Below, in pieces: positions 4,686 to 55,669 of a DNA stretch of 61,943 nt. Both the position numbers and the translations under genes were made by a program. The notes beneath the pieces are model-generated. The model was not told the origin of the DNA, ran no database searches, and saw only the letters and a program-made list of their open reading frames with translations. Source of the DNA: a virus; IMG/VR virus record IMGVR_UViG_3300025120_000046, positions 1 to 61,943 of that record; one strand, written 5' to 3'. Numbering within the stretch: position 1 is the first letter of the stretch; every line of letters starts with the position of its first letter.

Positions 4686-4804
4686 TCTTACACTATTTTG
4701 AATAGCGATATTGCATTATAACGCGAAATTACGCGATTTAATACAATACTTACCATGTTATATAACACTATATAACTTTAATATAAAATTAATTATATAC
4801 ATTA

Positions 4805-4878: not shown

Positions 4879-4909
4879 CTATTTCTTTAAGAATCATTTG
4901 GATTTAGTA

Positions 4910-4917
4910 TATTTATA
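4910..4917 (+). promoter_or_regulatory. Late-type box TATTTATA
   Basis: TATTTATA lies 32 bases after the tRNA and 18 bases before the ATG at 4936. The ninth base is C rather than the usual A. Confidence 0.55.
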
Positions 4918-4935
4918 CCATATATTCAAGATTAT

Positions 4936-5115
4936 ATGGGACATTATGAAGATTTTTTTATTGAAATGACACAATCACTGGATGAGAGAGGTCTAAGAGG
5001 TAAGTTTGATTCTCAATTACAAAAGATGCAATATCAAGAAAAACATCAAAGTAAGGATATTAGAGATAAGTGGAGATATGCTTTTGAAAAAATTATAAGT
5101 GATAAAAATGCTTAA
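4936..5115 (+). CDS. Hypothetical small protein
   Basis: A 59-residue helical, charged frame beginning MGHYEDFFIEMTQSLDERG and ending ISDKNA. It starts 18 bases after a late-type box. Its stop overlaps the following gene's ATG (ATGCTTAA). No domain recognised. Confidence 0.55.
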   Translation: MGHYEDFFIEMTQSLDERGLRGKFDSQLQKMQYQEKHQSKDIRDKWRYAFEKIISDKNA

Positions 5116-5524
5116 TCTAGATAATCTGTTTAATTTATTTCCCCCTAAGGATGTTATTGAAAACAATGATGTTCATATTGATTTTAAAGAATCCCCTACA
5201 TATTATTTAGGTATGTGGAAAAAAATAATATTAAACCATATAAACTTTAATAAAAAAATCTTAACATTTTTTAAAAAAACAAATAATGAATTTGACATAC
5301 AAGATATTGCTGAAGCTGGTAGGTATGTAACATTTGGAAGGGCTTGGTTTTACTTAAAAAAACTAGATCTTAATAATAAAGAGCATGTTAAAGCTATTCA
5401 AAATTACAGTGATGATTATTTAGATACATCCTTAGAATTAGGCATTCAGCATTTCCAAGAAAAAGAAGAATATGAAAAGTGTGCCCAAATCTTAAAAATA
5501 TTAAAAATCTCTCAAGAAATTTAA
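5108..5524 (+). CDS. Hypothetical protein
   Basis: A 138-residue helical protein of unknown function. I use ATG at 5108 rather than the in-frame GTG at 5099 because ATG overlaps the previous stop in the manner typical of this genome. It contains AEAGRYVTFGRAWFYLKKLDL and ends in EEYEKCAQILKILKISQEI, which resembles a helical-repeat protein, but no family is recognised. Confidence 0.65.
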   Translation: MLNLDNLFNLFPPKDVIENNDVHIDFKESPTYYLGMWKKIILNHINFNKKILTFFKKTNNEFDIQDIAEAGRYVTFGRAWFYLKKLDLNNKEHVKAIQNYSDDYLDTSLELGIQHFQEKEEYEKCAQILKILKISQEI

Positions 5525-28773: not shown

Positions 28774-29574
28774 ATGATATCATTAGTAACATTATTGAAA
28801 GAAGCAACTGAAACCCCAAAAGCAATTATATTAGCTGGGGCACCAGGTGCTGGTAAAGGATATATATTAAAAGGTTTAGATTTAGGTGGTTTAAAAGTAT
28901 TAAATATTGATAATATTTTTGTTAACATGCTTAAAAAAGCAAATGTATCTTTAGATTTAAAAAACGCAACACCAGAAGAAAGAAGCCAACAAGCTAAATC
29001 TATGGCAGCTGCAAATAAAGAATTTAAAGGAGATGTTGCAAGTGTAATTTTAAATAAAGAATCATTTATATTAGATGGTACGGCTGCATCATTAAGAAAT
29101 ACTCTTAAGCTAAAAGATGAATTAAAGGAAGCAGGGTATGAAGTATTTATGCTTTATGTTTATACTGATTTAGAACGTTCATTAAGACAAAATCAAAATA
29201 GATTTGAAAAATCAGGTGGTGAAGATAGAAGTTTAGCACCTGCAATTGTATTACGTACTTGGAAAAATGTAACTGATAATTTACCTGAATATGCTAATGC
29301 ATTTGGTGATAATTTTGTAGCAGTTGCTAATACTTTAGAAGGTCAAAAAATTGGAGATATAGAAAAAATAGTTCAAAAATACCTTAATCCATTCAAACCA
29401 GAAGGTACTAAACCTAAAACACCAGCTCAACAAAAAAAATCTGACGAACAAAAAGCAGAATTAAATGCTGAAATTCAAGATATGTTAAGTGATGAATTTT
29501 TATATGATGTAATTGAATACACTATGTCTAAAGAAGAAGCACAAATGAGATTAAAACAATTTTTAAATGGGTAA
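28774..29574 (+). CDS. P-loop kinase with N-terminal capsid-targeting-like peptide
   Basis: A 266-residue protein. The first 11 residues, MISLVTLLKEA, have the shape of a T4 capsid-targeting peptide with a gp21 site LKE|A. Then follows a zeta-toxin/AAA_33-like kinase: Walker A GAPGAGKG (residues 22-29), NIDNIFVNML, FILDGTAASLRNTL, VYTDLERSLRQNQNR, and VLRTWKNV, which supplies the LID arginine. The substrate is unknown. A late box drives it. It would be made late, packaged in the head and injected next round, much like T4 Alt. It overlaps the next gene by 8 bases. Targeting is inferred from the N-terminus and the neighbourhood. Confidence 0.75.
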   Translation: MISLVTLLKEATETPKAIILAGAPGAGKGYILKGLDLGGLKVLNIDNIFVNMLKKANVSLDLKNATPEERSQQAKSMAAANKEFKGDVASVILNKESFILDGTAASLRNTLKLKDELKEAGYEVFMLYVYTDLERSLRQNQNRFEKSGGEDRSLAPAIVLRTWKNVTDNLPEYANAFGDNFVAVANTLEGQKIGDIEKIVQKYLNPFKPEGTKPKTPAQQKKSDEQKAELNAEIQDMLSDEFLYDVIEYTMSKEEAQMRLKQFLNG

Positions 29575-31618
29575 AGTAATAGCAGCATACGGAGGTGGTT
29601 TTAAACCACCAACAAGAGGTCATTTTGAAATAGTACAAAAAGCTCTTAATGAGTTTCCTGAAATAGATGAATTTTTTATTTATGTAGGGGGTAAAGAACG
29701 TAATGGTATTGATCAAGCTGAAGCTATTCAAGTTTGGGAAATATATAAAAAATATTTAGCTAATAAAATTGATATTCAACCTGCTAAACAACCAATTAAA
29801 AGTGTATTAGATTTAGCCAAAGAAAATCCTCAGGATATAGTATATTTTATTTTAGGTTATAGAGAAGGCAGAGAAGATGATACTCAAGATATAACAGATA
29901 GATCTAAGTTAGAAGAAAAATATCCAAATTTAATAGTAAAAACACTAGGAACTCCAGATCCAAATATGAGTGGAACTAATGCTAGAAAAGCAATAGCTGA
30001 TGAAGAAGAATTTATAAAATTTTTACCTGATGAAGTTGAAGAAAAATCTGAAATTTGGAATATAATAAGACCAGCAGTAAATGAAAATGACCCTAAAAAA
30101 GGTACAGGTAAAAAACCTGAAGGATCAAAACGTAGATTATACACAGATGAGGATCCAAAAGATACAGTAGGTATAAAATTTTCTACTAGACAAGATATAG
30201 TAGATACATTAGGTAAAGCATCTTTTAAAGCTAAATCACATGCTAGACAATCTCAAATTATTAATTTAATACACCAAAGAGTAAGAGCAGCGTATGGTAG
30301 AGCAAAAGATCCTGCTGTAAAAAAACGATTAAAAACTGGTTTAGATTATATTACAGATAAAAAAGAAGCATCTAAGAAAAAGACACAACGTTTAAAAAAT
30401 CAAAAAGAAAATATAGATCCTAAATCACAAAAGCAACATAAAGGTAAAGCAGCACCATTTGGCTCAGCATATAAACCATTAAGTGAAGAAATAGTAGGTA
30501 GTAAAATACACTGTAATAACTGTGATTGGAGTTGGGAGATTGAAGATGGTGGTGCTGATTTGTTTATTTGTCATAAATGTAATCATGATAATACTGAATA
30601 TATAGAAAGACAAAAGTTTACAATTAATGAAAATGCTACTTATACTAAAAAAATTAATTTAATAGATATTTTAGCAACTTTTACTCAACATATGTTAGAT
30701 ATAGGTATGAATATTTCTCCATTACCTAAGTTAGAATTTATAGATGGTGATAGTGAAAATGCTAGTCAATTTTTAGGCAAAACTGCGTATTACGACCCAA
30801 ATACCCAAACTATAGTACTATATACGGAAGGTAGACATCCTAAGGATATAACGCGTAGTTACGCGCATGAAATGGTACACCACATGCAAAATTTAGAAGA
30901 TAGATTAGGCAATATCCAAACAACAAATACACAAGAAGATGATAATTTAAATAATATTGAAGCTGAAGCTAATTTAAAAGGTACAATGACATTTAGAAAT
31001 TGGACTGATAGTTTAAATGAAGATAAATCTTATAAACATAAATTTGGATTTAATGATAAATTAGGTAAGGATCCATTTGGTTTAAATCAATTTGCTAGAG
31101 AAATAGCAACAGAAGTTGAAGACGTTATGAATAAAGAAAAAACAAGTTATAAAATATTTTCAGATATGGATGGTGTTTTAACAGATTTTGATAAATCATT
31201 TTTAAAATATTCAGAAGGAATACCACCAAGAGAATATGAAAAAACATATGGTAAAGAAAAATTTTGGGAATTAATTGATGGTAAAGGTAAAGTAGGATTT
31301 TGGGTAGGAATGCCTTGGATGGAAGATGGAAAACAATATTGGGATTATATTAAAAATTATGACACAGAACTACTATCTTCACCTTCAAGATCATCAACAT
31401 CTAGATTAGGTAAAAGATTATGGGTAAGAAATAATATGCCTGGAATTAAATTAACGTTAGCTCAAGCGGCTAAAAAACAAAATTATGCAGCACCTAATCA
31501 TATACTAATTGATGATAGACCTTCAAATATAGATCAATGGAGATCACAAGGTGGAATTGGTATATTACACACATCAGCTGCCGATACAATATCACAACTT
31601 AAAAAATTAGGATTATGA
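29567..31618 (+). CDS. Four-domain fusion: nucleotidyltransferase, zinc ribbon, HExxH peptidase-like, HAD phosphatase
   Basis: A 683-residue multidomain protein. Residues 1-150 are an HxGH nucleotidyltransferase (GGGFKPPTRGHF, MSGTNARKAI), close to NadM-like enzymes. Residues 185-285 are a basic helical linker. Residues 312-345 are a zinc ribbon (CNNC ... CHKC). Residues 355-480 are a zincin-like domain with HEMVHH (434-439). Residues 525-683 are a HAD/5'-nucleotidase-like phosphatase (DMDGVLTDFD at 533-542, LSSPS, ILIDDRPSN). Possible gp21 sites (L/I)xE fall between domains at E307, E355 and E485, so it may be a polyprotein cut in the prohead. It overlaps both neighbours by 8 and 4 bases. 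The frame is continuous; no stop or shift is seen. Confidence 0.8.
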   Translation: MGKVIAAYGGGFKPPTRGHFEIVQKALNEFPEIDEFFIYVGGKERNGIDQAEAIQVWEIYKKYLANKIDIQPAKQPIKSVLDLAKENPQDIVYFILGYREGREDDTQDITDRSKLEEKYPNLIVKTLGTPDPNMSGTNARKAIADEEEFIKFLPDEVEEKSEIWNIIRPAVNENDPKKGTGKKPEGSKRRLYTDEDPKDTVGIKFSTRQDIVDTLGKASFKAKSHARQSQIINLIHQRVRAAYGRAKDPAVKKRLKTGLDYITDKKEASKKKTQRLKNQKENIDPKSQKQHKGKAAPFGSAYKPLSEEIVGSKIHCNNCDWSWEIEDGGADLFICHKCNHDNTEYIERQKFTINENATYTKKINLIDILATFTQHMLDIGMNISPLPKLEFIDGDSENASQFLGKTAYYDPNTQTIVLYTEGRHPKDITRSYAHEMVHHMQNLEDRLGNIQTTNTQEDDNLNNIEAEANLKGTMTFRNWTDSLNEDKSYKHKFGFNDKLGKDPFGLNQFAREIATEVEDVMNKEKTSYKIFSDMDGVLTDFDKSFLKYSEGIPPREYEKTYGKEKFWELIDGKGKVGFWVGMPWMEDGKQYWDYIKNYDTELLSSPSRSSTSRLGKRLWVRNNMPGIKLTLAQAAKKQNYAAPNHILIDDRPSNIDQWRSQGGIGILHTSAADTISQLKKLGL

Positions 31619-32431: not shown

Positions 32432-33457
32432 ATGAGCAATTTCGATATTCATTCTTTTTTCAAAAATCAATATATAAACGAAGCGATTAATTCTAAACTT
32501 AATTCTAATGAAATGAGTAAAGAAGAAGATGCTAAAATATTAATATCTGCTGTAGAAGAAGCAGTTGGTGGGATTGATGATAGATTTGGATCAGGAGGAT
32601 ATAATGGTAGAGATGGATATTATTTAAGAGTATATGATTTAGAATATTGGGAAGATGAAGAAGTTGATGCTATTAAAAAAGCATTCGAAATGGCAAATAC
32701 CCAAACCGAAAAATATGATTTTGAATTTTATAGTGTAACTGATTATGATGAGGATCCAGGTGAAAGAACATACCCGGCTTCAATATCATTTTTTGCTGTG
32801 GAAAAACCAGTAAATGAAATAGATATGAATGATCCTGTTGTAATGAAAGCAAGAGCGGCTAAAATGGCTGATGAAAAAGAAATGGCTAGACAAGCATCAT
32901 TAGATAAAAAATATGGTTCTACATTCATGGATAAATTAGATGCTGAAATAAGTTTAAAACAAGAACTTCAAGATCTAAAAGACGAAAGAGAACAGCTAAT
33001 GATAGATATGGAGCAAGAAGCAGAACCAGAAGGAGGAGAAATAGCTGATAGATACGGTTCTAGACTTAATGACATTGATGCTAGAATGGCTGAAATAAAA
33101 CCTGAATTAGATGATTTAAGAATGTATGAATCAGTTAATGAAAGTTCTTCTTCTGAAGAAAAAAGAATTGCTATGCGTGCTATTAAAAGTATTGCTAAGT
33201 ATAGAGGTGTTAGTGAAGATGAAGCAAGAAACGATCTTATGAGAGCAGCTAAAGAATTAGGTAGTTTAAAAGAAGCAATACTAGATATTAAAGAAACTAT
33301 TGAATTAGGAAAAAATTTAAATGAAGAACTTTGCGCTAAAGGTAAAGCATATAGAAAACGTAGAATGGCTGCAGGTGAAAAATCATCAGCTTACTTATCA
33401 GGACGTGCTGTTAAAGTATGTAAAGGTCAAATGAGTGGTAGGAAAAAAAAGAAGTAA
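32432..33457 (+). CDS. Predicted capsid cargo protein with basic Cys-pair tail
   Basis: A 341-residue protein. The N-terminus MSNFDIHSFFKNQYINEAIN ends in INE|A, a possible gp21 site after residue 17. An acidic globular region (about 30-130) is followed by a long charged coiled coil (LKQELQDLKDEREQLMID). The last 41 residues are strongly basic with two cysteines (C301, C330) and end in KKKK. A similar Cys-pair basic tail is seen at 34105, so it may bind DNA in the head. No enzyme motif seen. It overlaps the next gene by 1 base. Confidence 0.65.
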   Translation: MSNFDIHSFFKNQYINEAINSKLNSNEMSKEEDAKILISAVEEAVGGIDDRFGSGGYNGRDGYYLRVYDLEYWEDEEVDAIKKAFEMANTQTEKYDFEFYSVTDYDEDPGERTYPASISFFAVEKPVNEIDMNDPVVMKARAAKMADEKEMARQASLDKKYGSTFMDKLDAEISLKQELQDLKDEREQLMIDMEQEAEPEGGEIADRYGSRLNDIDARMAEIKPELDDLRMYESVNESSSSEEKRIAMRAIKSIAKYRGVSEDEARNDLMRAAKELGSLKEAILDIKETIELGKNLNEELCAKGKAYRKRRMAAGEKSSAYLSGRAVKVCKGQMSGRKKKK

Positions 33458-34098
33458 TGAATAACTTTGATTTAAAAAAATATTTATCTGAAGGTAAATT
33501 AACTGAAGATATTCCTGTAGAAGAAATGGAATCTTTTGCTGAAGGTAGAGGTGAAGGCGCAGAAACAATAGCTGACAATGCTAAAGAAAAAGGTGGTAAT
33601 TCAATGTTGACTTATCACCATTTTAAAGTTAAAGCACCTTATTATAAAAAAGCAACAGATGGTAATTTTGATAAAGATGAATTTACTGAAGATTATAAAG
33701 GATTTTTGGAAGAATTATATGAAAAAACTAAAGATGGTATGAACATTGAACCTATAGCTTTTCAAGAGATTATGGGTAAAATTGAAGTATTAGGTGAACT
33801 TTTAGTTGAAAATAAAGAACCATTAAATGAAGCAGAAGAAGACAGTAATATAGTCCCTGAAGCTGAATTAATTTTACCTAGAGGCAAAAAAGTAGTATTA
33901 CAAGCTGAAGACACAGATTATAAAAGAGGTTTAATAGTTGAACTACTAGACAATGGTGGTTATGAGATGGCCTACTGGTATGATAAACCAGATAAACCAT
34001 ACCCAGTTGAAATATTAGTTGATGGTCAAAGTATTAAGGAAGATGGTAAAATCGTTGAAATGAAATTTCACCCACAAGATTATTATGATAAACAATAG
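33457..34098 (+). CDS. Predicted capsid cargo protein
   Basis: A 213-residue acidic protein. N-terminus MNNFDLKKYLSEGKLTED offers LSE|G and LTE|D gp21-like sites; a further LNE|A lies near residue 125 between a helical first part and a beta-rich second part (LILPRGKKVVLQAED ... VEILVDGQ). Internal processing into two pieces is therefore possible. No known domain. Start overlaps the stop of the gene before it. Confidence 0.6.
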   Translation: MNNFDLKKYLSEGKLTEDIPVEEMESFAEGRGEGAETIADNAKEKGGNSMLTYHHFKVKAPYYKKATDGNFDKDEFTEDYKGFLEELYEKTKDGMNIEPIAFQEIMGKIEVLGELLVENKEPLNEAEEDSNIVPEAELILPRGKKVVLQAEDTDYKRGLIVELLDNGGYEMAYWYDKPDKPYPVEILVDGQSIKEDGKIVEMKFHPQDYYDKQ

Positions 34099-34104
34099 AT
34101 AATA

Positions 34105-34380
34105 ATGACTAGAGAAAGATTAGATGAAATAATACAAGAATCCCTACGTGACTGGTTTAAAAAAGAAAACTGGGTTCGCATCAATACTTCAGGTAATATT
34201 GCTGGTGATTGTGGTACTATGAAAAAAGGTAAAGCAACTACTAGATGTTTACCTAAGAAAAAAGCTCAATCTTTAACTAAAGCTGAGCGAAAAGCAACAG
34301 TTGCTAAAAAGGTTCGAGGAGATAAAAAAGGTAAACAATTCGTTAAAAATACAAAAAAAGCAGAATACAAGAAAAAATAA
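34105..34380 (+). CDS. DUF6321-like basic protein
   Basis: A 91-residue protein with an amphipathic N-terminus (MTRERLDEIIQESLRDWF, gp21-like IQE|S) followed by WVRINTSGNIAGDCG, a C-x11-C pair (C36, C48) and a very basic tail (about 25 Lys in 55 residues). The W-V-x-I...C-G...K-G-K...C-L-P...S-L-T-K-A-E-R pattern matches the phage DUF6321 family as I remember it. It is probably a DNA-associated internal protein. Followed by a 79-base gap with a late box. Confidence 0.65.
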   Translation: MTRERLDEIIQESLRDWFKKENWVRINTSGNIAGDCGTMKKGKATTRCLPKKKAQSLTKAERKATVAKKVRGDKKGKQFVKNTKKAEYKKK

Positions 34381-34422
34381 CAATAATCACGTAAAAATAC
34401 GCGATTAGGAACTATTTCGATA

Positions 34423-34431
34423 TATTTATAA
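34423..34431 (+). promoter_or_regulatory. Late-type box TATTTATAA
   Basis: The palindromic form TATTTATAAATA, 28 bases before the ATG at 34460, giving the longest leader among these boxes. Confidence 0.65.
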
Positions 34432-34459
34432 ATAAACCCAACTAAAATAAAAATTTAAA

Positions 34460-35155
34460 ATGAAAAAATCTGAATTAAAAGAAATTATAAAAGCATCATT
34501 TCTTGCTGAAGCTGAGGATTCCAAAAAAGGAAATAAAGAAGAGCAAAAGCGTATGGAAGGTGCTATCCGTGATGATAGAGATCATATAAAAGATCTTGAA
34601 AAAGACATTAAGGATAACGAAGAAAAATTAGCTAAACTTAAAAAAGACTTTAAAGATGACGTTTCTGAAGAAATGAAAAAAGATGATGTTGATGAAGCTA
34701 TGAGAGGTGGAGATGACGTTGATGAAGCTATGCGTAACAGATATGAAGATGATACAATGAGAGAAGCTGAAGAAGTTAATGTTGAAGATAATGAAGACAT
34801 TAATGTTGACGTTGAAGATGATATTGATATTGATGATGTATCTAAAAAATCAGAAATTGAAGTTGATTCTGAATTAGCAGGTGAAGATGCTGATGTAGCA
34901 GCTATATTAGGTCTTTTAACAAAAGCTCAAGCAAATGCTAAAGATTTAGGTGATGAAAAACTAATGGATCAAATCGGAAATACTATTACTTATTATACTA
35001 GAACTCATGTTGTTGCTGAAGAAATGAAAGATGATATGGATGAAGCTATGAGAGGTGATATGGATGAAGAAATGAAAGATGATAAAATGGAAGAAGCTAT
35101 TAATTTAGATGAATCATTATCAAGATTTAGAAAATTAGCAGGATTAGACAAATAA
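34460..35155 (+). CDS. Acidic internal/scaffold-like protein sharing ends with gp22
   Basis: A 231-residue, extremely acidic protein. The N-terminus MKKSELKEIIKASFLAEAED carries a gp21-like LAE|A site. Two exact-type repeats DDVDEAMRG/N and further DDMDEAMRG/DMDEEMKD units flank the middle. The last residues ESLSRFRKLAGL closely match the end of the scaffold protein (MVARFKKLAGII at 52633-53910). It could be a second scaffold or internal core protein, like the acidic T4 gp67/gp68, but no direct homology to these is visible. Confidence 0.65.
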   Translation: MKKSELKEIIKASFLAEAEDSKKGNKEEQKRMEGAIRDDRDHIKDLEKDIKDNEEKLAKLKKDFKDDVSEEMKKDDVDEAMRGGDDVDEAMRNRYEDDTMREAEEVNVEDNEDINVDVEDDIDIDDVSKKSEIEVDSELAGEDADVAAILGLLTKAQANAKDLGDEKLMDQIGNTITYYTRTHVVAEEMKDDMDEAMRGDMDEEMKDDKMEEAINLDESLSRFRKLAGLDK

Positions 35156-35358: not shown

Positions 35359-36912
35359 ATGGCGATAAACGAACGTAAACTGTCTAAAGACGAACTTAAA
35401 AAAAGGGAAGACATTATCATGAAAATGAAAGGTAACAAACGTGACCTTGTAAAAAAATATGGTAAAGATGCTGAAGCAGTAATGTACGGACGTGCCACTA
35501 ATATGGCTAAAAAAGCTACTGAAGAATCAAAAGATTCTAAATTAACTGAGTTAATTAAAGATGCTTTAAAAAATCCTAAAAAAGCTGATTTAGATAAAGA
35601 TGGTAAATTATCTGATTATGAAGAAGCAAGAGGAAAAGCTATTGAAAAATCAATAGAAAAGGATAAAGTAGAAGAAGTAATTCCGTTGGAGAAAGATTTT
35701 ACTTATGATTATGAAGATATAGGTCAATTTTATTTAGAGGGTTTTGGTAAACCATATTCATTAAATAATAGTGAATTAGAGATATTAGGTAAACAAATTG
35801 TTGATAGATTATATAAAGGAGATATTGGTAAAGCATATGATGATCTAGTAAAAAGAAGCAACGTAGATGAGGATTTAGATTTAGGTCATGAAGATAATGA
35901 GCCAGGTATGATTAAAGGTGATTTATATCAAATTGGTAAAGCATCTATGGAGTTATACAAAGTACTAGATCAATTTGATGATGCGGGTGAAGTAGATTTA
36001 CCTTCATGGTGGCAAAGTAAAATATTTAAGGCAAAAGAGGCTGTGGTTGGTGCTCAAGAATACCTTGAATTTGAACTTAAAGAACCACAAATTGATGCAA
36101 TAGTAGATGATGCTACCCTAGAAGAAATGGGCCAATTAGGCACAGATGATGATACAGGGTTTACTCCTAACTTATATACACCGAATGAAGTAGGCGATGA
36201 AGCAGTTCACCAAAGAGCAGCATCGGGGGCATTTGAAGAAAACTTAAATAAAGACAAAGACATGAAAGAACAAAGTAATGCAAATTCAAATTATGGATCA
36301 AATGATGGTTCAAATGAAAATTCAAATGATAACTTATCTTCATACTCAGGACTTAAAAAATTCGTAGCAGAAAAATTAGCTAAAGAATTAAAATCATCAG
36401 AAATTGATTTTGAAGAAGTTGAGGATGCAAATACAAGTGGTGTTGGTGATGGTTTAGCTGAAGATTTACTTAAAAAAGGTGGTAAAATATCTAAAGCATT
36501 AGAAGCATTAGAAAAAGCAGCGGCAGATGCTAAGATATCTGGTGATGCTGCAAAAGAATTATTTGCTAAATTTAAAAAAGAAATGGCACTAGCAGAACAA
36601 ATGCCTGGTGACCCAGAAAGGTTTGTTGGCTCAGGTGGTGATGAAATTGACTCAGATAACATTGATAATGTAACAGTTGATAGACCAGATAAAGATGCTG
36701 AAATAGGATTTGCATTAGATGAAGAAGAAACTAATGAATCTTTTGGTTCATTAGCTAAAAAAATTGACAAACAAAAAGGTAAAACTAAAAAAGATGCAGC
36801 TAACATAGCTGGATATATAGCTAATATTAAAAGAAAAGGTGGTGGGTCAGGTCCAACTACAAAACAAAAGAAAAGAATGGCTGAAACCGTTCTTAAACAA
36901 CTAAGAAAATAA
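35359..36912 (+). CDS. Large acidic predicted cargo/structural protein with EF-hand-like and NS-rich segments
   Basis: A 517-residue protein. Residues 15-50 (IIMKMKGNKRDLVKKYGKDA, then VMYGRATNMAK) and 75-92 (KADLDKDGKLSDYEEARG, an EF-hand-like D-x-D-x-G loop) are recurrent phage modules. Residues 120-245 form a helical domain with LPSWWQSKIFKAKEAVVGAQ. Residues 306-333 are an Asn/Ser-rich linker ending in SYSGLKKF, nearly repeated at the end of the protein encoded at 50645. The C-terminus is basic (KRKGGGSGPTTKQKKRMAE). It has no enzyme motif. It is likely an internal head protein; LTE sites near residue 64 may be processed. Confidence 0.65.
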   Translation: MAINERKLSKDELKKREDIIMKMKGNKRDLVKKYGKDAEAVMYGRATNMAKKATEESKDSKLTELIKDALKNPKKADLDKDGKLSDYEEARGKAIEKSIEKDKVEEVIPLEKDFTYDYEDIGQFYLEGFGKPYSLNNSELEILGKQIVDRLYKGDIGKAYDDLVKRSNVDEDLDLGHEDNEPGMIKGDLYQIGKASMELYKVLDQFDDAGEVDLPSWWQSKIFKAKEAVVGAQEYLEFELKEPQIDAIVDDATLEEMGQLGTDDDTGFTPNLYTPNEVGDEAVHQRAASGAFEENLNKDKDMKEQSNANSNYGSNDGSNENSNDNLSSYSGLKKFVAEKLAKELKSSEIDFEEVEDANTSGVGDGLAEDLLKKGGKISKALEALEKAAADAKISGDAAKELFAKFKKEMALAEQMPGDPERFVGSGGDEIDSDNIDNVTVDRPDKDAEIGFALDEEETNESFGSLAKKIDKQKGKTKKDAANIAGYIANIKRKGGGSGPTTKQKKRMAETVLKQLRK

Positions 36913-42582: not shown

Positions 42583-43272
42583 ATGGAAAGAAACGGAAAA
42601 CAGTTTTATACAGTTGGGGGAAAATTAATTGATATTTCAAATTGGAATATTAGTGGAAGTATTGCTGACTTTGAAAAAAATTATGGCTGGGAAGGTGCAA
42701 TGGCTTATGGAAATTTAGTTCATGATGAATTAAACCAACATGGTCCAGGAATCCAACCAGGAGATGTATATTTAGACTTGGGGGCAAATATAGGTATGTC
42801 GGCTTTAAGAGCTGAATTGTGTGGTGCCTCTAAATTATATTGCATTGAACCAGATCCGGGTGTATATAAAGCTTTAGAAATAAATAAATCAGATAAATGG
42901 GAAACATTTAATTTAGCAATTGCTGATTATGATGGAGAAATAAATATACCTAGATGGCCTAATTGGAGAGATAATGTTTTACGTTCTTGTATTACTTTAG
43001 AAAATTTTATTTATTCTAATAAAATCCCACACATTGATTATATGAAAGTAGATATTGAAGGACATGAAATTCAAATTATGCCTCAAATTACTAAAGCAAT
43101 ATACAGTAAAATTTCTAAAATATTTGTAGAATATCATGAGGACACTACAATTTCTAATGAAGAAAGAGATACAAATAGATTAAAATTTATTAAATCAATC
43201 AAATCAAAAGGTTATAATAATTTTCATGTTCATCTTGGATGGGCTCAAAGTTGGTTGTATTTTTGGAAATAA
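42583..43272 (+). CDS. FkbM-family SAM-dependent methyltransferase
   Basis: A 229-residue protein with the FkbM methyltransferase pattern. The SAM-binding motif is VYLDLGANIGMSALRAE (about residues 63-79). The acidic strand YCIEPDPGVYKALE, then DYMKVDIEGHEIQIM (motif with D-x-E-G-x-E) and IFVEYHED are typical. FkbM enzymes O-methylate sugars or other hydroxyls, often on cell-surface glycans. It starts 2 bases after the cupin gene. Modification of host surface or phage glycan is plausible. Confidence 0.88.
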   Translation: MERNGKQFYTVGGKLIDISNWNISGSIADFEKNYGWEGAMAYGNLVHDELNQHGPGIQPGDVYLDLGANIGMSALRAELCGASKLYCIEPDPGVYKALEINKSDKWETFNLAIADYDGEINIPRWPNWRDNVLRSCITLENFIYSNKIPHIDYMKVDIEGHEIQIMPQITKAIYSKISKIFVEYHEDTTISNEERDTNRLKFIKSIKSKGYNNFHVHLGWAQSWLYFWK

Positions 43273-43838: not shown

Positions 43839-44192
43839 ATGAAAAAATCTGAATTAAAGGCATCAATAAAAGAAGAAATAATTGAAATATTATCTGAAGC
43901 AGAAACAGCAGATGATATTAGTGATAAAGCAAAGGCACAAGCTGAATTAAATAAGGAATTAGAAAAAACTAAAGAACTTACTTCAGAAGCAGATGATGAT
44001 GAACCTACAACATCACAATTAAAAGGTGACTCTGTATCTAAATTAGGTACTAAATTACAACAAACAACAGCAGAAATGAAACGAGTAGTTAAAAAATGGA
44101 AAGATGCTGAAGGTGCTGAAAAAGTTAAATTAACTGATAGATTAAGAGAATTAACAAAAATTAAAAAAGAGATAGAATCTCTACTACAATAA
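43839..44192 (+). CDS. Predicted capsid-targeted small protein
   Basis: A 117-residue highly charged helical protein. The N-terminus MKKSELKASIKEEIIEILSE with LSE|A at residues 18-21 is nearly the same design as at 34460 and 49271. The rest is a helical coiled coil (MKRVVKKWKDAEGAEKVKL). It starts 16 bases after a late box and belongs to the head gene run. Cleavage by gp21 and packaging are inferred. Confidence 0.62.
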   Translation: MKKSELKASIKEEIIEILSEAETADDISDKAKAQAELNKELEKTKELTSEADDDEPTTSQLKGDSVSKLGTKLQQTTAEMKRVVKKWKDAEGAEKVKLTDRLRELTKIKKEIESLLQ

Positions 44193-48420: not shown

Positions 48421-49278
48421 ATGTATATAAAACATTCAAAATTCAGGAATACGGGTATTTTATTTGAAGTAGTAGTTAGAAAAATTACTTCAGAGACTCT
48501 ATCAGGTAAAGATTCCCCCGCAATTAACATATTAAAAAAACATTTTGTTAATACAGAGTTAGGTAAAGAGTATAAATTGTATGAAACTACATTTAGATCT
48601 AAAAATTTAAATGATAGTAAGGCAAATACTATTTTAAATACAGTATTAGAACAATCTAAAAAGCTTAATAGAAGTAGGATTAGAAAAGAAAAATACAATT
48701 TAATAAGTGAGCTAAAATTGCATTATAATGTAGAAGATTTATTTAAAACCAAAATGAATGATTATAAAGCACAAGCATCACTTTATACTTTATTAGAAGC
48801 TTATAATACAGATAAACTAATAGATCCTAATCAAATTATAGATAATAAAGTAACTTTATTAGAATATTTAACATCTAAAGATGTAAATAGAAATAACGTA
48901 AAAGATGATATCATATCAGAATTTAAATCTCAAGATAAAGATATTCGTACATTAACATATCATGTAATGTTAGAAAAATTTAATGAAAAATATGATGAGT
49001 TAAATTTAAAACAAAAATCAATACTTAAAGAATTTATTGAGTCTGTAGATAATACATCTAGGTTAAAAGAATTTTATAATAATGAAGTTAAAATAATTAA
49101 AGAATCAATTAAATCTTCAATATCCAAAGTTAAAAGTGAAGTTGTTAAAATTAAATTAAATGAAGTTTCTTCTTTAATTAAAGAATTAGATAAAAGAACT
49201 ATTATTAAAAGTGATCATTTAGTTGATTTGTTACAATATCATTCATTATTAGAAGAATTAAATACAGCTCATGGATAG
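48421..49278 (+). CDS. Conserved head-region protein between portal and protease
   Basis: A 285-residue helical basic/acidic protein. I use ATG 48421 rather than the TTG one codon earlier. N-terminus MYIKHSKFRNTGILFEVVVR resembles a gene found between gp20 and gp21 in marine T4-like phages (TGILFELLVRQIT... type), whose role is unknown. The whole chain is helical with SILKEFIESVDNTSRLKEFY. It overlaps the next gene by 8 bases. Confidence 0.7.
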   Translation: MYIKHSKFRNTGILFEVVVRKITSETLSGKDSPAINILKKHFVNTELGKEYKLYETTFRSKNLNDSKANTILNTVLEQSKKLNRSRIRKEKYNLISELKLHYNVEDLFKTKMNDYKAQASLYTLLEAYNTDKLIDPNQIIDNKVTLLEYLTSKDVNRNNVKDDIISEFKSQDKDIRTLTYHVMLEKFNEKYDELNLKQKSILKEFIESVDNTSRLKEFYNNEVKIIKESIKSSISKVKSEVVKIKLNEVSSLIKELDKRTIIKSDHLVDLLQYHSLLEELNTAHG

Positions 49279-50641
49279 AACTAAAATAATTAATAAAGTA
49301 ATTAAAGAAATCCTATCAGAAGCTCCTGGAGATGATTTACCTAAAGTTGATAAAAGTGGTAAATCAAAAGTAGGAGATGTTAAAATTAGTAATGGTATAA
49401 AATCAACTATTACTAATATAGATAAAGAAACAGGAGCAATTAAGTGGGATATAGCTTATTTACCTAATTTTGATAAATTATTTGATGATGTAACTGATTT
49501 AGTGGGCACAGCAAAAGGTGTTTATACTAAAGCAAAAGGAGATGATGTATTAAGGGTAATATATGATGAAGCTCGTGTATTAAGAAATAAAATTCGTACA
49601 CATATTAGAAATGAATATCCTGAAGAATATAGAAGGATAACAATGAATGAAGGTGAATTAGAAGAAATGTCTACAACAGGTGGTGGAGCTGGATCAGCTA
49701 CATTTACACCAGGTACAGGAATGCAGTATGCAACACCATATGCATTTAAAAGAGTTAAAAAGAAAAAAGAAGAAGTTAAAGAAAATTTAAAAGATTATAT
49801 AAAAATATCTGAACCAAGTTTTAGGAAAGATAAAAATAATCCTAATTTCTTATCTGGGTATATAAAGTATGATACTGGAGGTGGTTCATCTATGGCATTA
49901 GGTAAAGAAACAATGTCAGGTCAAATCAGAAGATTAAGTTCAGCTGAAGCTGTAAGACAAATGGATAATATAGCTAAAAAGCTTAATGATAGTTTTGATA
50001 TAGAAGATATTGAAGTAACAGATTTAGAAAATGGTGTAGTTGAATTATTTGCTGTATCAGATGATTTTATAGATATGGATCCAAGATCTGAATTAAGTAT
50101 GGCTTTATTAGAAGTAGATGAAAAATGGGATAAGATTGCAAGAGATGAGTATGGCAAACCTTGGATGGAATTAAGTATTGCCCAAAAGCAAGAGATGCTA
50201 AGTTATGCGAATAGAGAGACAGAAAAGAAATTTGAAACAGATTTTGAAAGACGTAGAAAAGAAACATCTGATTATGTAGATGAAGGAATTGGAGCTTCAT
50301 TAGGCCCAGGTCCTAAAGCAAGTGCTGATGGAGTTAAAGATAATTCATACGTAAAAGAATTTGGGTATAAATTAGTACCTAAAAAAATTAAAGGATCAGG
50401 TTTAATAGTAAAACAACTATTTGAAGCTGCTGAATCAACAGATGACTTTCAAGGTGGAAGATTAAAAGCATTTGATCGCATTGAACAAGAAATAAATGAT
50501 ATTTATAAAATGTTGAGTAATGCTAAAAATGAAACAGCTGAATACTATAAAGAAAACCCAGGTTCATACTCTGTAGTAAAACCAACAGATTTAGTTTTAG
50601 ACTATATAAAAGATATTAAAGACTTATTAAAAGGAGAATAA
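49271..50641 (+). CDS. Head-region protein with capsid-targeting peptide and MCP-like segment
   Basis: A 456-residue protein. N-terminus MDRTKIINKVIKEILSEAPG has the LSE|A site at residues 15-18. Residues 128-151 read GELEEMSTTGGGAGSATFTP followed by GTGMQ, nearly identical to the segment after the presumed cleavage site of the major capsid protein (TGGGAGSGTFTP). A basic stretch KRVKKKKEEVKEN follows. The rest is alpha/beta with LEDGVVELFAVSDDF-type strands. No enzyme motif is recognised. It is probably a core or internal head protein processed by gp21. Confidence 0.68.
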   Translation: MDRTKIINKVIKEILSEAPGDDLPKVDKSGKSKVGDVKISNGIKSTITNIDKETGAIKWDIAYLPNFDKLFDDVTDLVGTAKGVYTKAKGDDVLRVIYDEARVLRNKIRTHIRNEYPEEYRRITMNEGELEEMSTTGGGAGSATFTPGTGMQYATPYAFKRVKKKKEEVKENLKDYIKISEPSFRKDKNNPNFLSGYIKYDTGGGSSMALGKETMSGQIRRLSSAEAVRQMDNIAKKLNDSFDIEDIEVTDLENGVVELFAVSDDFIDMDPRSELSMALLEVDEKWDKIARDEYGKPWMELSIAQKQEMLSYANRETEKKFETDFERRRKETSDYVDEGIGASLGPGPKASADGVKDNSYVKEFGYKLVPKKIKGSGLIVKQLFEAAESTDDFQGGRLKAFDRIEQEINDIYKMLSNAKNETAEYYKENPGSYSVVKPTDLVLDYIKDIKDLLKGE

Positions 50642-50644
50642 AAA

Positions 50645-51835
50645 ATGAAAACATTACAAGAACAATACAACCAAATAAAAAAAGGAAATGGTAGTAAAGA
50701 AATTTTCCTTAAAGAAGTAAAAGCAAAATACCCAAATTTAGTTCGTAACGCAGCTCAATTTGATGAAGCTTCAGCTATTTTAGCAAAAAGAAATATTATA
50801 TCAGAAAATCTATATGTTACTAATAAACCAAAAGACCCAAATTGGTTTAAATTATTTGATGAAAATATGAATCTTGTTTCTTTAGAAGAAGCAAAAGCAA
50901 TTGAAAAAAAAGTAACTAAAGAAGTAACTGATTTACAAGCGCCAACTAAGGGATATGACTATAAAAATGATAGTCTAATTGATAATGTATCAGGTGAACA
51001 ATTCCGTCAAGGTTATTATACAGAACTTACTGATGCTTCTAATGCAGATAAATCTAAAAAAGAATTAATTGATTTAGTTATTAAAAATATGTCTAAAAAT
51101 CCACAATATTATACTGAAGAAGCTCAGTTTGGTGTTAAAGGAATAGGATATACAGAAGATGCTCCGGCATTAGGAAAAGGAAAACAAGTAAAAGACCCAG
51201 GTGTTGGTGGTGGATATGGTGAAGCTACTAAAAAAGACTTTGATAAAGGAGAAGTTGGTACTGGTTATTTAGAATTAAAAGAAAACAAAATGATATCATT
51301 ATTAGATTTATTAAACGAATCACCATTAGGTGAAAAACCAAAAGCTAAAAAAGTTAAAAAAGCTAAAAAAGAAACAACCGAAAGTAAATTAGCCGAAATT
51401 GAAAAAAACGGTAGAATTGCTACTATGGAACTTCAAATTGAAGCTTTATATGAAATTATTGAAGGTAAACAAGAAAGAATTTCTATGGTTACTGAAGATG
51501 ATAGCCTATCAGAATTAGTAGATAAAACTAAAATGAAAGAAATGCAACGTGAAGTAAAGATTCTTGAAAAGCGTAAAGATAAGATGGAAAAAGTTTATGA
51601 AAAGATGTGTGGTAAAGCATATAAAAGACAAATGGATGAAGATTTAGGTTCTTCTAATTATGCTGGAGCAGCTAATAATGATAAATCACAAGAAGCTTTT
51701 AGAAATAATGCTGATCAAGAAATTGCTGAAGAAAGTAATGCTGGTTCAAATGAAGGTTCAAATGATAATTCAAATGAAAATTCAAACGATAACAAAGAAT
51801 CATATTCTGGTTTAAGTAAATTTAGAACTGCATAA
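50645..51835 (+). CDS. Head-region protein with NS-rich C-terminal repeat
   Basis: A 396-residue charged helical protein. The N-terminal 70 residues are compact (LQEQYNQIKKGNGSKEIFLK, LKE|V). A central coiled coil spans residues about 255-330 (IEALYEIIEGKQERISMV, REVKILEKRKDKMEKVYEK). The end (EESNAGSNEGSNDNSNEN ... SYSGLSKF) almost repeats a segment of the protein at 35359. It lies 8 bases before gp21 and is a probable scaffold-core or internal protein. Confidence 0.65.
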   Translation: MKTLQEQYNQIKKGNGSKEIFLKEVKAKYPNLVRNAAQFDEASAILAKRNIISENLYVTNKPKDPNWFKLFDENMNLVSLEEAKAIEKKVTKEVTDLQAPTKGYDYKNDSLIDNVSGEQFRQGYYTELTDASNADKSKKELIDLVIKNMSKNPQYYTEEAQFGVKGIGYTEDAPALGKGKQVKDPGVGGGYGEATKKDFDKGEVGTGYLELKENKMISLLDLLNESPLGEKPKAKKVKKAKKETTESKLAEIEKNGRIATMELQIEALYEIIEGKQERISMVTEDDSLSELVDKTKMKEMQREVKILEKRKDKMEKVYEKMCGKAYKRQMDEDLGSSNYAGAANNDKSQEAFRNNADQEIAEESNAGSNEGSNDNSNENSNDNKESYSGLSKFRTA

Positions 51836-51843
51836 AATATACT

Positions 51844-52446
51844 ATGAGTCAATTATTAATAGAAACACACGTATTTAAACCTAAAGGGGTACGTTTAAAC
51901 GAATCACGTTCAAAACGAGGTTTACCTATAGTTGAAGGAATATTAGCTACTGCTGAAGTAAAAAACGGTAATGGCAGATATTATTCTAAAGAACTTTGGG
52001 ATAGAGAAATAGACAAATACAGAGTATTAGTTGACGAAAATAGAGCAATGGGTGAATTAGACCACCCTGAATCATCAGTAATAAATTTACAAAATGTATC
52101 ACATAATATATCAGATATGTGGTGGGATGGAGATAATGTAATGGGTAAAATAGAAATTTTACCTACCCCAAATGGTAATATACTTAAGGCATTAGTTGAA
52201 AGTGGAATTACAGTTGGTGTTTCATCTAGAGGAATGGGTACATTAGAACAAAAAGGTGAATTAATGGAAGTACAAGATGATTTTGAATTACTGTGTTGGG
52301 ATTTTGTTTCAACACCTTCTAATCCAGATTCATTTATGCATTTAGTTAGAGAAAATAAAGAATATAAAGCACAAGATAATTATAAAAAAGTAAATACAAT
52401 ACTAGGTGAAATATTATGTTCGCATGGTTTTTGCCCTATTGTATAA
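51844..52446 (+). CDS. 21: Prohead protease (T4 gp21-like)
   Basis: A 200-residue serine protease of the herpesvirus-assemblin-like fold. The catalytic His is in MGELDHPESSVI (H74) and the Ser in VGVSSRGMGTL (S127 or S128), the standard spacing for gp21. The N-terminus has VRLNE|S near residue 20, a likely self-processing site. The enzyme removes scaffold and N-terminal peptides at (L/I)xE sites during head maturation, and so would also process the cargo proteins predicted here. T4 gp21 has 212 residues. It ends the operon; a hairpin terminator follows. Confidence 0.93.
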   Translation: MSQLLIETHVFKPKGVRLNESRSKRGLPIVEGILATAEVKNGNGRYYSKELWDREIDKYRVLVDENRAMGELDHPESSVINLQNVSHNISDMWWDGDNVMGKIEILPTPNGNILKALVESGITVGVSSRGMGTLEQKGELMEVQDDFELLCWDFVSTPSNPDSFMHLVRENKEYKAQDNYKKVNTILGEILCSHGFCPIV

Positions 52447-52632: not shown

Positions 52633-53910
52633 ATGAACAGAAACTTTTTAAAAGAAGCAATCGCTGATGCTAAAGCAGTCAAAGAATCTGCAATAGCAAA
52701 TGCTAAAGTCGCTCTAGAAGAAGCTTTTTCCCCACAAGTTCAAGCCATGTTCGCTAGTAAAATAGAAGAAATGGAAAAAGAAGATGTGAAGGAAGAAATG
52801 GACGATAAAGTAGACGAAGCTAAAAAAGATGATGATAAAATGGAGGAAGGAAAAGAATACATGACCAAAAAGGAAAAGCGCGAAGGTGACGATCGTAAGT
52901 CTGATAACAAGGCTGAGACTGAAACTGAAAAAATGCGTAAAATCAAAGAGGAAGATGTATCTGATCTAGACGAAATTTTAGCAGAATTAGAAAAAGATGA
53001 AGATCTAAAGGAAAACAAAGACAAAGAAATCGACGAAGCAAAAAAGGACGACGACAAGGAAGACATCAAAGAAGATGAAAGAACTGACGCTGAAGAAGAA
53101 GGCTACGAAGATGGAATGGAAGACGAAAAAGAAGATGAGGACGATGAAGATATCGACCTTGATGACTTATCGGAAGAAGACCTTAAGAAATTTATCGAAG
53201 ATGTAATCGAAGATATGGTTAACGCTGGTGAAATTGAAGCTGGTGAATCATTCGAAGATGATGTAGATGTTAATGTTGACGTAGACGGAGAAATTGAAGT
53301 AGAAGATGATGAAGAAACTTCTGTGGATGTAGCCGAAGCTAAAGAAGACATTGATGAAGCAAAAGATAAAGTTGACGAAAAGAAAAAACAAGGATACGAT
53401 GCAAGATTGGATGATGCTGAAGGTGCTAGACATGGTAAAAAGAAACAAGATATGGCTCAAAGAAGAGCTGATTCTGAAAACATGGAAAAAGCTGACGGTA
53501 AAAGAAAATTTGCAGGAGACAAAGAAATGGACAAAGTTAAAGAAGAATTAGCTGAAGCATACGCTACAGTTAAAACTTTAAAAACTGAGTTAAATGAAAT
53601 CAACTTATTGAATGCTAAATTACTCTACACGAATAAAGTGTTCCGTGGCAAAAACTTAACTGAATCACAAAAAGTTAAAGTATTAGGAGCTTTTGATAAA
53701 GCTGAATCTGTGAAAGAAGTAAAACTTGTGTTTGAAACTATCGATGGTAGTGTTAAAACAAAAGTATCTAATAAATCTATAAGCGAAGGCTTTAGATCTA
53801 AAGGAAGTGCTTCTAACATGACAGTAAATAAGAAAGAGACTAAAAAACAACCTATTGTTGAATCAGATGAGATGGTCGCTCGCTTTAAGAAATTAGCTGG
53901 AATAATCTAA
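52633..53910 (+). CDS. 22: Prohead core scaffold protein (T4 gp22-like)
   Basis: A 425-residue, strongly acidic and helical protein directly between gp21 and gp23, the conserved place of gp22. The N-terminus MNRNFLKEAIADAKAVKESA matches the start of gp22 scaffolds and has LKE|A. The middle (residues 45-270) is highly acidic (EDEKEDEDDEDIDLDDLSEE). Residues about 300-345 form a coiled coil followed by VFRGKNLTESQKVKVLGAFD and the end SDEMVARFKKLAGII, a conserved gp22-type C-terminus. It fills the prohead and is degraded by gp21. T4 gp22 has 269 residues; the extra length is the acidic insert, with somewhat different codon use (more GAC, GAT mixtures). Confidence 0.88.
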   Translation: MNRNFLKEAIADAKAVKESAIANAKVALEEAFSPQVQAMFASKIEEMEKEDVKEEMDDKVDEAKKDDDKMEEGKEYMTKKEKREGDDRKSDNKAETETEKMRKIKEEDVSDLDEILAELEKDEDLKENKDKEIDEAKKDDDKEDIKEDERTDAEEEGYEDGMEDEKEDEDDEDIDLDDLSEEDLKKFIEDVIEDMVNAGEIEAGESFEDDVDVNVDVDGEIEVEDDEETSVDVAEAKEDIDEAKDKVDEKKKQGYDARLDDAEGARHGKKKQDMAQRRADSENMEKADGKRKFAGDKEMDKVKEELAEAYATVKTLKTELNEINLLNAKLLYTNKVFRGKNLTESQKVKVLGAFDKAESVKEVKLVFETIDGSVKTKVSNKSISEGFRSKGSASNMTVNKKETKKQPIVESDEMVARFKKLAGII

Positions 53911-53953: not shown

Positions 53954-55669
53954 ATGTCACAATTAAATTCTCTATTAGAAAGTGCTAATCCTTACAAGTC
54001 GCTACAAAGTGATGCGGCTAGATTAGCAAACAAATGGAATAAGACAGGTTTATTAGAAGGTATCGGTAACGAAACTGAGAAAAATAATATGTCTATTATT
54101 CTTGAAAACCAAGCTAAGCAGTTGGTAATGGAAGAAAGTAATACTGGTGGTGGTGCAGGTTCAGGAACATTTACTCCTGGAACTGGTGCTCAATGGGCTG
54201 GTGTAGCTTTACCATTAGTAAGAAAAGTATTTGGTCAAATCGCAGCAAAAGAATTTGTTTCGGTTCAACCAATGAACTTACCTTCTGGCCTAGTATTTTA
54301 TCTTGATTTCCAGTATGGTACTACAAAAGATCCATTCACAAGAGGAAATTCATTATTTGGTGATACAGTAGCAACTCAAACAGGTCCTATTAATGACGTA
54401 ACTTCTCCATTTGGTAACACAAATGCAGGTGGTCTTTATGGTGCTGGTAGATTTGGTTACTCTATTAACAACACACAATCATTAGCTTATAAGCCAGTTT
54501 CGGCTTCAGTTGATTGGTATGTAGATTTACAAGCTGATTCTTCAGTTTCTCAATCTTATCTTGCAGGTAATGTAACTAACGCTGCTGGAACAGGTATTAC
54601 AGGTGCTAAGCAAATTGGTGCGTTCAACGTACCAGTAGCTTCTTTACCTAACTACGATACTAGAGCCGTAAAAGGATTCTATTTATCAGGTTCTGCTGCT
54701 ACTATTCCTGCTACTACAGTTCAATACCCACAATTTACAAAAGTAACGCAATCAGCTGGTGTTGATGTAATTGCTTTCTTCGTAGATTCTGATATTGATG
54801 CTTCTGCTGCAGGTGCAAACGTTAAAGTTGTTTATACTCTTCAAACTTCTGACAATGAAAGAGGTGATTTCGAAGATGGTAACACTAACTTAAACGGAAA
54901 TAACGACCCAATCACTATCCCTCAGATTAACATTCAAATGCAATCAGAGGCTATAGTTGCTAAAACTAGAAAATTAAGAGCAGTTTGGACTCCTGAGTTC
55001 GCTCAAGATCTTAACGCTTACCATTCTCTAGATGCAGAAGCTGAATTAACTTCAATCATGAGTGAGTACATTTCATTAGAAATTGACTTAGAAATTCTTG
55101 ATATGTTGATCGAATCAGCTGCAGCTGGTACAGAATGGTGGAGTGCTCAGAACAACTTAGCAGTTGGTTCTACAGGTGTTGTAAATGCTGACTTAGGGTT
55201 CTTTAACTCTCAAGGACAATGGTTCCAAACTTTAGGAACTAAAATCCAAAAGTTAAGTAATATCATTCACCAGAAAACTCTTAGAGGTGGTGCTAATTTC
55301 TTAGTATGTTCTCCAACAGTAGCTACAATTATCGAATCTATACCAGGATTTGCTAGTACTTCTGATGGTGATGCTGCTAAAGCTTCTTACGCTTTTGGTG
55401 TACAGAAAGCTGGTACTATCAACTCTAGATATACTGTTTATAAGAACCCTTACATGACTGAAAACACAATCCTATTAGGATTTAGAGGAGGTCAGTTCTT
55501 AGAAGCTGGTGCTGTATTTGCTCCATATATTCCGTTAATTATGACTCCATTAGTATACGATCCAAATACCTTTACTCCAAGAAAAGGTCTATTAACTCGT
55601 TACGCTAAGAAAGTCGTAAGACCAGAATTCTATGGTAAAATCTTTGTTAATGGTTTAAATACTCTTTAA
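53954..55669 (+). CDS. 23: Major capsid protein (T4 gp23-like)
   Basis: A 571-residue HK97-fold capsid protein. The first ~61 residues (MSQLNSLLESANPYKSLQSD ... QLVMEE) form the delta domain removed by gp21, the cut being near E60/E61 before SNTGGGAGSGTFTPGTG. Typical gp23 stretches follow: WAGVALPLVRKVFGQIAAKE, FVSVQPMNLPSGLVFYLDFQ, TRKLRAVWTPEFAQDLNAYH, LEIDLEILDMLI and YNPKTF-like VYDPNTFTPRKGLLTRYAKK. Codon use is more G+C-rich than neighbours, as expected for the most abundant protein. A strong terminator follows 29 bases after the stop. Confidence 0.96.
   Translation: MSQLNSLLESANPYKSLQSDAARLANKWNKTGLLEGIGNETEKNNMSIILENQAKQLVMEESNTGGGAGSGTFTPGTGAQWAGVALPLVRKVFGQIAAKEFVSVQPMNLPSGLVFYLDFQYGTTKDPFTRGNSLFGDTVATQTGPINDVTSPFGNTNAGGLYGAGRFGYSINNTQSLAYKPVSASVDWYVDLQADSSVSQSYLAGNVTNAAGTGITGAKQIGAFNVPVASLPNYDTRAVKGFYLSGSAATIPATTVQYPQFTKVTQSAGVDVIAFFVDSDIDASAAGANVKVVYTLQTSDNERGDFEDGNTNLNGNNDPITIPQINIQMQSEAIVAKTRKLRAVWTPEFAQDLNAYHSLDAEAELTSIMSEYISLEIDLEILDMLIESAAAGTEWWSAQNNLAVGSTGVVNADLGFFNSQGQWFQTLGTKIQKLSNIIHQKTLRGGANFLVCSPTVATIIESIPGFASTSDGDAAKASYAFGVQKAGTINSRYTVYKNPYMTENTILLGFRGGQFLEAGAVFAPYIPLIMTPLVYDPNTFTPRKGLLTRYAKKVVRPEFYGKIFVNGLNTL

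Follow-up and report, generated by a model that had tools for sequence, protein, structure and literature searches.

A predicted virion-cargo polyprotein in a T4-like phage, with prohead-protease-type sites at its module joints

Introduction

Why would a single phage gene string together a nucleotidyltransferase, a zinc ribbon, a zincin-like metallopeptidase, and a HAD-fold phosphatase, and would the resulting chain act whole or in pieces? The question is raised by a long open reading frame in IMG/VR record IMGVR_UViG_3300025120_000046, analyzed here over its full 61,943 nucleotides (hereafter, the window). An earlier note, made from the letters alone, had read this frame as a possible capsid polyprotein with (L/I)xE protease sites between its domains, such that gp21 cleavage in the prohead would let a single packaging signal deliver several enzymes. 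In T4, gp21 cuts after L/I-x-E, and the capsid-targeting sequence (CTS) comprises 10 residues; in the IPIII targeting sequence, positions 4 and 7 serve targeting and positions 8 and 10 serve processing, and IPIII is no longer processed when P1 is Asp (PMC9026906). The reading that we favor, with a probability of roughly 0.68, is that the frame encodes one of a family of mosaic polyproteins, virion cargo of T4-like phages, which would be cut in the prohead by the phage's own gp21-type protease. The earlier proposal is supported by comparison (module joints, alignment breakpoints, CTS-tagged single genes, and the presence of gp21), from which we infer that the pieces would be packaged, cleaved, and ejected.

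Results

The 683-residue frame on which that proposal rested is real, running from an ATG at 29567 to 31618 on the plus strand, which carries all of its modules and sites. The count of four enzymatic domains had to be revised: We find five modules, three of them enzyme-like, as one domain (D2) had gone uncounted and the zinc ribbon is non-enzymatic. Module 1 (residues 1-167, 29567..30067) is a nucleotidyltransferase (NT) of the NadD/NMNAT/PPAT fold, identified from its motifs and by Foldseek. It had been called an HxGH enzyme; the domain is there, but its motif reads P-T-R-G-H (T16-H19), that is, the TxGH form of the signature (P-T-x-G-H at 16-19), and is accompanied by S135-G-T-N-A-R140 (SGTxxR, 135-140). 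NT thereby shares the alpha/beta fold and the T/HxGH and SxTxxR motifs with NadD, NMN adenylyltransferase, and PPAT, its best Foldseek matches being NadD (E = 7e-6) and PPAT (TM 0.73-0.76), but it stays far below the curated family cut-offs, with 21.5 bits against the NadD family TIGR00482, where 112.45 are required.

Module 2, D2 (residues 174-283, 30086..30415), is a basic domain (KKGTGKKPEGSKRRLYTDE), and module 3 (residues 308-350, 30488..30616) is a zinc ribbon with C316-x2-C319 and C335-x2-C338. Module 4 (residues 356-482, 30632..31012) is a zincin-like metallopeptidase domain, H434-E-M-V-H438, in which H434-H438 and Glu 465 and 467 are invariant in an alignment of 25 sequences; searched against PDB sequences, profiles of this zincin and of the GRYD type described below retrieved no solved relative. 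Module 5 (residues 525-683, 31139..31615) is a HAD-fold 5'(3')-deoxyribonucleotidase-like domain with D533-x-D535, which matches phrog_2643 (E = 2.2e-22), HAD structures by Foldseek, and, below the cut-off of 24.8 bits, Pfam NT5C (17.6 bits). From these signatures, NT, zincin, and HAD would each be active enzymes. Structure prediction, which the earlier note had proposed as a check, returned confident domains joined by low-confidence linkers: The AlphaFold2 (AF2) model, built on an alignment of 41 rows, has a mean pLDDT of 80.8 and a pTM of 0.37, which together suggest well-defined domains with no fixed mutual arrangement, and its low-pLDDT linkers lie at about residues 172-195, 292-311, 343-358, and 487-524.

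Every joint between folded modules carries a protease-type site, as in viral polyproteins. The sites E307, E355, and E485 lie exactly where the earlier note had placed them, and a fourth that it had missed, VNE at E173, lies at the joint of NT and D2. The predicted sites (a slash marks the putative scissile bond) are V171-N172-E173 / N174 (AVNE/N, 30077..30085), within a low-pLDDT segment and at a joint conserved in relatives; L305-S306-E307 / E308 (PLSE/E, 30479..30487), within 292-311; I353-N354-E355 / N356 (TINE/N, 30623..30631), within 343-358; and L483-N484-E485 / D486 (SLNE/D, 31013..31021), which abuts 487-524. The last one had been described as standing before the HAD domain; it is indeed upstream of that domain, but it closes the zincin, and ~40 residues, including a linker with a helix, separate it from the HAD core (~525). 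Because no [LIV]xE stands directly before that core, HAD, once released, would still carry 40 extra residues that include the predicted helix (504-518).

The placement of these motifs, unlike their number, is not at chance level. The protein contains nine [LIV]xE where its composition predicts 9.0, and we accordingly rejected the raw count as evidence. The five that are not at joints all lie inside NT, at 29, 35, 58, 117, and 159, with F, F, I, K, and K as their P1' residues. After filtering for a P1' residue [AGSNDEQT], as learned from joint sites elsewhere in the family, exactly four sites are left, all at joints. Since 134 of the 683 residues (20%) lie in or at most 3 residues from an AF2 linker, such a four-out-of-four placement would arise by chance with a probability of ~0.0015, a value that is indicative only, as the filter was picked after the family joint sites had been seen.

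A scan of IMG/VR for relatives yielded 80 loci (given L numbers below). Modules have been gained, lost, and reordered among them, resulting in mosaics such as NT-ZIN, NT-ZIN-ZnR-HAD, NT-D2-ZIN-HAD, NT-ZnR-D2-ZIN (ZIN, zincin; ZnR, zinc ribbon), and others. The zinc ribbon stands before the zincin in some relatives and after it in others, and at three loci a second HAD, with an N-terminus of the same kind (MNQLVQELIKDLLE/Q), takes the place of NT. The sole cultured relative with NT is Flavobacterium phage immuto, where the NMNAT-annotated protein and a nucleotidase are neighboring genes. In immuto_2-6A, the joints of gp088 and gp087 have motifs of the [LIV/M/T]xE type, for instance TLAE/ALDD, RLPE/GAEQ, and VMAE/GRYD, and, in gp087, LLLE/E. 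MAG contigs bearing the zincin are labeled Flavobacteriales, Winogradskyella, or uncultured bacterium, which makes Bacteroidota hosts likely, and the phages of the family probably infect marine Bacteroidota. An AF2 model of an eight-module relative (L045), made for domain identification, was dropped for its poor mean pLDDT of 61.8.

A lack of the sites in homologues would, according to the earlier note, have refuted the polyprotein reading; we found them present at the joints. In the 25 residues that precede a module, an [LIV]xE occurs for the zincin in 39/42 nonredundant cases (16.8 after shuffling), for internal HAD domains in 19/21 (shuffle 11.8), for D2 in 12/12 (shuffle 6.5), and for the zinc ribbon in 14/16 (shuffle 8.5). 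These joint sites are Leu-rich at P3 and have N, E, A, or G at P1', and sites within domains of the relatives have L, K, F, Y, or W at P1'. A separate search with a second, HEIEH-type zincin, which starts with G[RK]YD, gave 79 loci, where the motif immediately precedes the domain in 22 of 25 nonredundant embedded cases (shuffle 2.2). As a separate gene, this zincin follows 10-14 residues in all four cases (MISLKKLIVE/GRYD, MIKLINILKE, MQLTLSDILFE, and MKYIKQFENFLINE). We also noted that some polyproteins contain two copies of this second type (HEIEH or HELEH) beside HEMxHH, as in L035:3341-3910 and 4745-5389.

The same association is found when the joints are defined independently of the motif, as breakpoints at which local alignments among 58 nonredundant proteins of the family start or end. 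Within 8 residues of these, [LIV]xE was present at 202 of 373 starts (expected 85) and 211 of 356 ends (expected 80), while the 8-residue controls [LIV]xD, xK, xN, xS, and xA, [AGST]xE, and [KRDE]xE reached 0.7-1.2 times expectation. With a 4-residue window and the P1' filter, [LIV]xE[AGSNDEQT] was found at 121/373 starts (expected 28) and 128/356 ends (expected 26), corresponding to ratios of 4.3 and 5.0, against 0.4-1.7 for the D, K, Q, and N analogues. Collapsing the breakpoints by context lowered the share near [LIV]xE to 87/256 and 108/254, and as the proteins share ancestry, all these counts are not independent and z-scores overstate certainty; the firm part of the test is the contrast with the control motifs.

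Several modules occur both inside polyproteins and as genes with a short N-terminus ending in [LIV]xE: HAD, the second zincin, D2, a PRGK module, an LYHxT module, an "IGDSSPLK" module, and a DUF5661-containing pair. D2, for example, forms its own gene in L028 behind MIKLIDILFE/GDPK; in a 53-kb Pelagibacter phage, used as a control, it has no CTS (MAKKREPKKGTGK). A short N-terminal [LIV]xE peptide precedes the separate HAD in 17 of 17 nonredundant genes, where those with fewer than 8 residues before the core were left unscored, as in the exceptions L039 and L040, whose HAD genes begin directly at the domain. The HADs of N4-like phages, of siphoviral phages, and of most jumbo phages (two) likewise start at the domain, with no [LIV]xE peptide. 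The HADs of HTVC008M and Melnitz, both T4-like Kyanoviridae, carry [LIV]xE extensions (...HLVQE/Q and ...SINE/E), and that of the T4-superfamily phage Cr30 lacks an extension and stands among nucleotide-metabolism genes. In Ochrobactrum phage ORM_20, HAD follows an extension that contains one such triplet and is unclassified.

These N-termini follow the same grammar as the T4 IPIII CTS. The retrieved loci contain 572 nonredundant ORFs, among which the late region is heavily represented. Positions 4, 7, and 8 are hydrophobic in 89 of these, and residue 10 is Glu in 35 of the 89 (expected 7.2), with no other residue comparably enriched there. The LYHxT...ISTTR module (L045:6289-6663, L024:9070-9552, L110:238-699), which in one setting forms a CTS-tagged gene of its own and in another is part of a polyprotein, looks by eye like ADP-ribosyltransferases (cf. 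T4 Alt); it matched no family, and we keep this as a resemblance only.

The 61.9-kb contig of the window carries T4-type head genes, with the terminase at 44881 and the portal at 46491, and a T4 gp21-type prohead protease (51844..52446, +; phrog_207 head maturation protease, E = 4e-59), so that cargo of the T4 CTS type and its protease would be encoded by the same phage. The window protease and gp70 of immuto have GELDHPE and SSRG in common, and 12 of 12 long family records checked contain a gp21-type protease. The gp22-like scaffold core (52633..53910, +), assigned from its position and its likeness to immuto gp67, contains 25 [LIV]xE versus 12.1 expected; the major capsid protein gp23 (53954..55669, +; phrog_138, E = 6e-72) has N-terminal sites GLLE/G and ILE/N that are conserved between the window and immuto; and the large tail genes have no [LIV]xE excess.

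Further late genes of the window, at 32432-35155, 43839-44192, and 49271-50641, have N-terminal [LIV]xE peptides as well (e.g., MNNFDLKKYLSE/GKLTE/D and MKKSELKASIKE/EIIE/ILSE/A) and are candidates for head cargo or core proteins. The N-terminal region of gp23 (53954-55669) and the head-region protein at 49271-50641 share TGGGAGSxTFTPGTG just after an [LIV]xE. A basic C-terminal cassette, ELCAxGKAYRKRRMAAGEKSSAYLSGRAVKVCKGQMSGRKKKK, is found in 32432-33457 and in L035:7545-9746, preceded by NLNE/ in the window and by TITE/ in L035, and an Asn/Ser-rich repeat, SNxGSNxxSNDN...SYSGLxKF, occurs in both 35359-36912 and 50645-51835.

The window protein itself, which starts MGKVIAAYGGGF, has no N-terminal CTS of ~10 residues ending in [L/I]xE, and neither does its closest clade; many relatives, the separate HAD, D2, and zincin genes, and the overlapping kinase gene do have one. 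For the "single packaging signal" of the earlier note, which is thus missing from the N-terminus, the only candidate is an internal amphipathic helix, FGLNQFAREIATEVE (residues 504-518, 31076-31120, +), which recurs in the family. The element reads K-D-P-F-G-L-N-Q-F-A-R-E-I-A here and KDPFGLNQ(F/Y)ARELAxGLEE in most relatives, and is present in 36 of the 58 nonredundant NT-bearing members (39 counting fragments), with or without an N-terminal CTS. It occurs only inside polyproteins and never begins a separate gene; the idea that the FGLN helix is a variant N-terminal CTS of other genes was rejected, as none was found. Our guess is that the FGLNQFAREIA helix acts as the entry signal of the window protein. 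The distant, short members L034, L038, L066, L073, and L077 have neither a CTS nor the internal helix.

Immediately upstream, with an 8-nt overlap with the polyprotein gene, lies the gene of a zeta-toxin-like P-loop kinase (28774-29574, +; PF06414, E = 5.7e-16), whose residues 1-10 form a T4-type CTS, MISLVTLLKE/A. The overlap resembles coupled translation. A frameshift fusion to this CTS-bearing kinase was unsupported, given the coupled stop/start overlap (8 or 4 nt) and no conserved slippery sequence. In relatives the kinase has either the same CTS or another N-terminal peptide (MDNFNLKKYLTE/GSLLKE/A in L019, similar in L031), as if tags had been swapped.

Discussion

On the reading that we favor, the polyprotein would be made late in infection and enter the prohead core, where the gp21-type prohead protease would cut after [L/I/V]-x-E at E173, E307, E355, and E485; the head would then contain NT, D2, zinc ribbon, zincin, and HAD nucleotidase as separate pieces, to be ejected together with the DNA. 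Over evolution, CTS-tagged cargo genes and polyprotein modules may have been converted into each other, as fusion of a CTS-tagged gene brings along its targeting and cleavage peptide as a ready-made linker. A more far-reaching version, for which we see the odds as about even, is a cassette system: Modules flanked by protease sites would shuttle between CTS-tagged genes and polyproteins of up to ~8 modules, each chain would be cut into many enzymes in the prohead, and the FGLNQFARELA helix would be the packaging signal of the clade that lacks a CTS. Counting against cleavage is that [LIV]xE is short and common, with five copies inside NT.

Fusion of CTS-tagged genes could, by itself, account for every joint with no further selection. 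The linker sites might then be fossils of the fused cargo genes in a protein that stays uncut, either packaged or acting as an intracellular multidomain protein, like polyvalent proteins. That many relatives encode HAD as its own gene, and others as part of a fusion, fits such a history. We nevertheless consider it unlikely: At the joints, the middle residue of the motif is variable and yet the hydrophobic P3, the Glu at P1, and the small or polar P1' persist, and the same protease is present and the linkers are predicted to be flexible. We give a distinctly smaller chance to an ordinary late enzyme that stays out of the head and works inside the cell, in NAD or nucleotide metabolism. A window protein devoid of an N-terminal CTS, a site count equal to chance, and an immuto homologue annotated as NMN adenylyltransferase would suit such an enzyme, but the motif placement would then have to be a by-product of E-rich linkers, in which the control motifs are not enriched, and relatives have CTS-like N-termini that are absent from the HADs of non-T4 phages. 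Least probable of all is that the polyprotein is cut by its own zincin (one or two copies in each chain), which is conserved in nearly all members, as Iyer et al. 2017 proposed for the polyvalent proteins of other phages (PMC5512222): Separate genes that have no zincin also have N-termini ending in this [LIV]xE peptide, and the motif is that of T4 gp21 (PMC9026906).

The statement that no described phage system resembles this one was too strong, as gp21-cut CTS cargo of T4 (PMC9026906) and polyvalent proteins (PMC5512222) are close precedents. T4 IPI-IPIII and Alt share with the family an N-terminal peptide of ~10 residues, hydrophobic at 4, 7, and 8, with Glu at 10 and ending in L/I-x-E (PMC9026906), as well as the T4-type protease and enzymes as cargo (here predicted). 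T4 cargo consists, however, of single proteins with terminal cuts (at both ends for Alt), whereas the chain here links many folded modules, and each of its joints has a site. Polyvalent proteins (Iyer et al. 2017, PMC5512222), compared here by description, likewise combine several unrelated enzymatic domains around a zincin hub, in shuffled architectures with predicted capsid delivery. The window protein resembles them in having at least two biochemically unrelated domains (NT, zincin, and HAD) and a zincin-like MPTase with HExxH and a downstream Glu (E465/E467). Processing of polyvalent proteins is ascribed to the zincin or to a fused assemblin-like peptidase (PMC5512222); the present family, by contrast, has joint sites for a separate gp21, and its modules also exist as CTS-tagged genes. 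The ejection proteins of phiKZ and SPN3US, cut by gp175/gp245, are again head proteins with a short x-x-E motif and several cuts per propeptide, but there the propeptides are discarded and the cuts do not separate different functional modules (PMC10052503). Our literature search, which mostly lay outside subscription journals, returned work on CTS cargo, on maturation by prohead proteases, and on polyvalent proteins, but none that describes a cargo polyprotein whose modules are joined at prohead-protease sites.

If the favored reading is true, a tailed DNA phage would use a polyprotein strategy, with its capsid maturation protease also serving to process cargo, and large, shuffled multidomain proteins could be loaded and yet act as separate enzymes. 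The sequence rule ([LIV]xE joints and a 10-residue CTS) would help to predict which proteins are injected by the T4-like phages that infect marine bacteria, phages in which most late genes have no assigned function. Virion proteomics of immuto and its group was not found in the literature, including the Flavobacterium phage paper PMC7077304; with this phage in culture, the idea can be tested at once.

As to what the enzymes would do, the suggested attack on, or rebuilding of, host NAD or nucleotide pools is not supported, given how far NT falls below the curated NadD cut-off. By analogy with other phage enzymes, which are known to restore NAD against host defences (NARP1, PMC12774641), an NMN/NaMN adenylyltransferase could act in the first minutes to restore NAD depleted by such defences, a reading that the weak NadD profile match (21.5 bits versus 112) weakens. 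Elsewhere, the window encodes a heptose-phosphate-adenylyltransferase-like protein (623-1030), a UvsE-type UV endonuclease (3140-4036), an FkbM methyltransferase (42583-43272), and a phosphatidylserine-decarboxylase-like protein (56700-57434), and the only tRNA found in it is a tRNA-Arg (tct) at 4805-4879.
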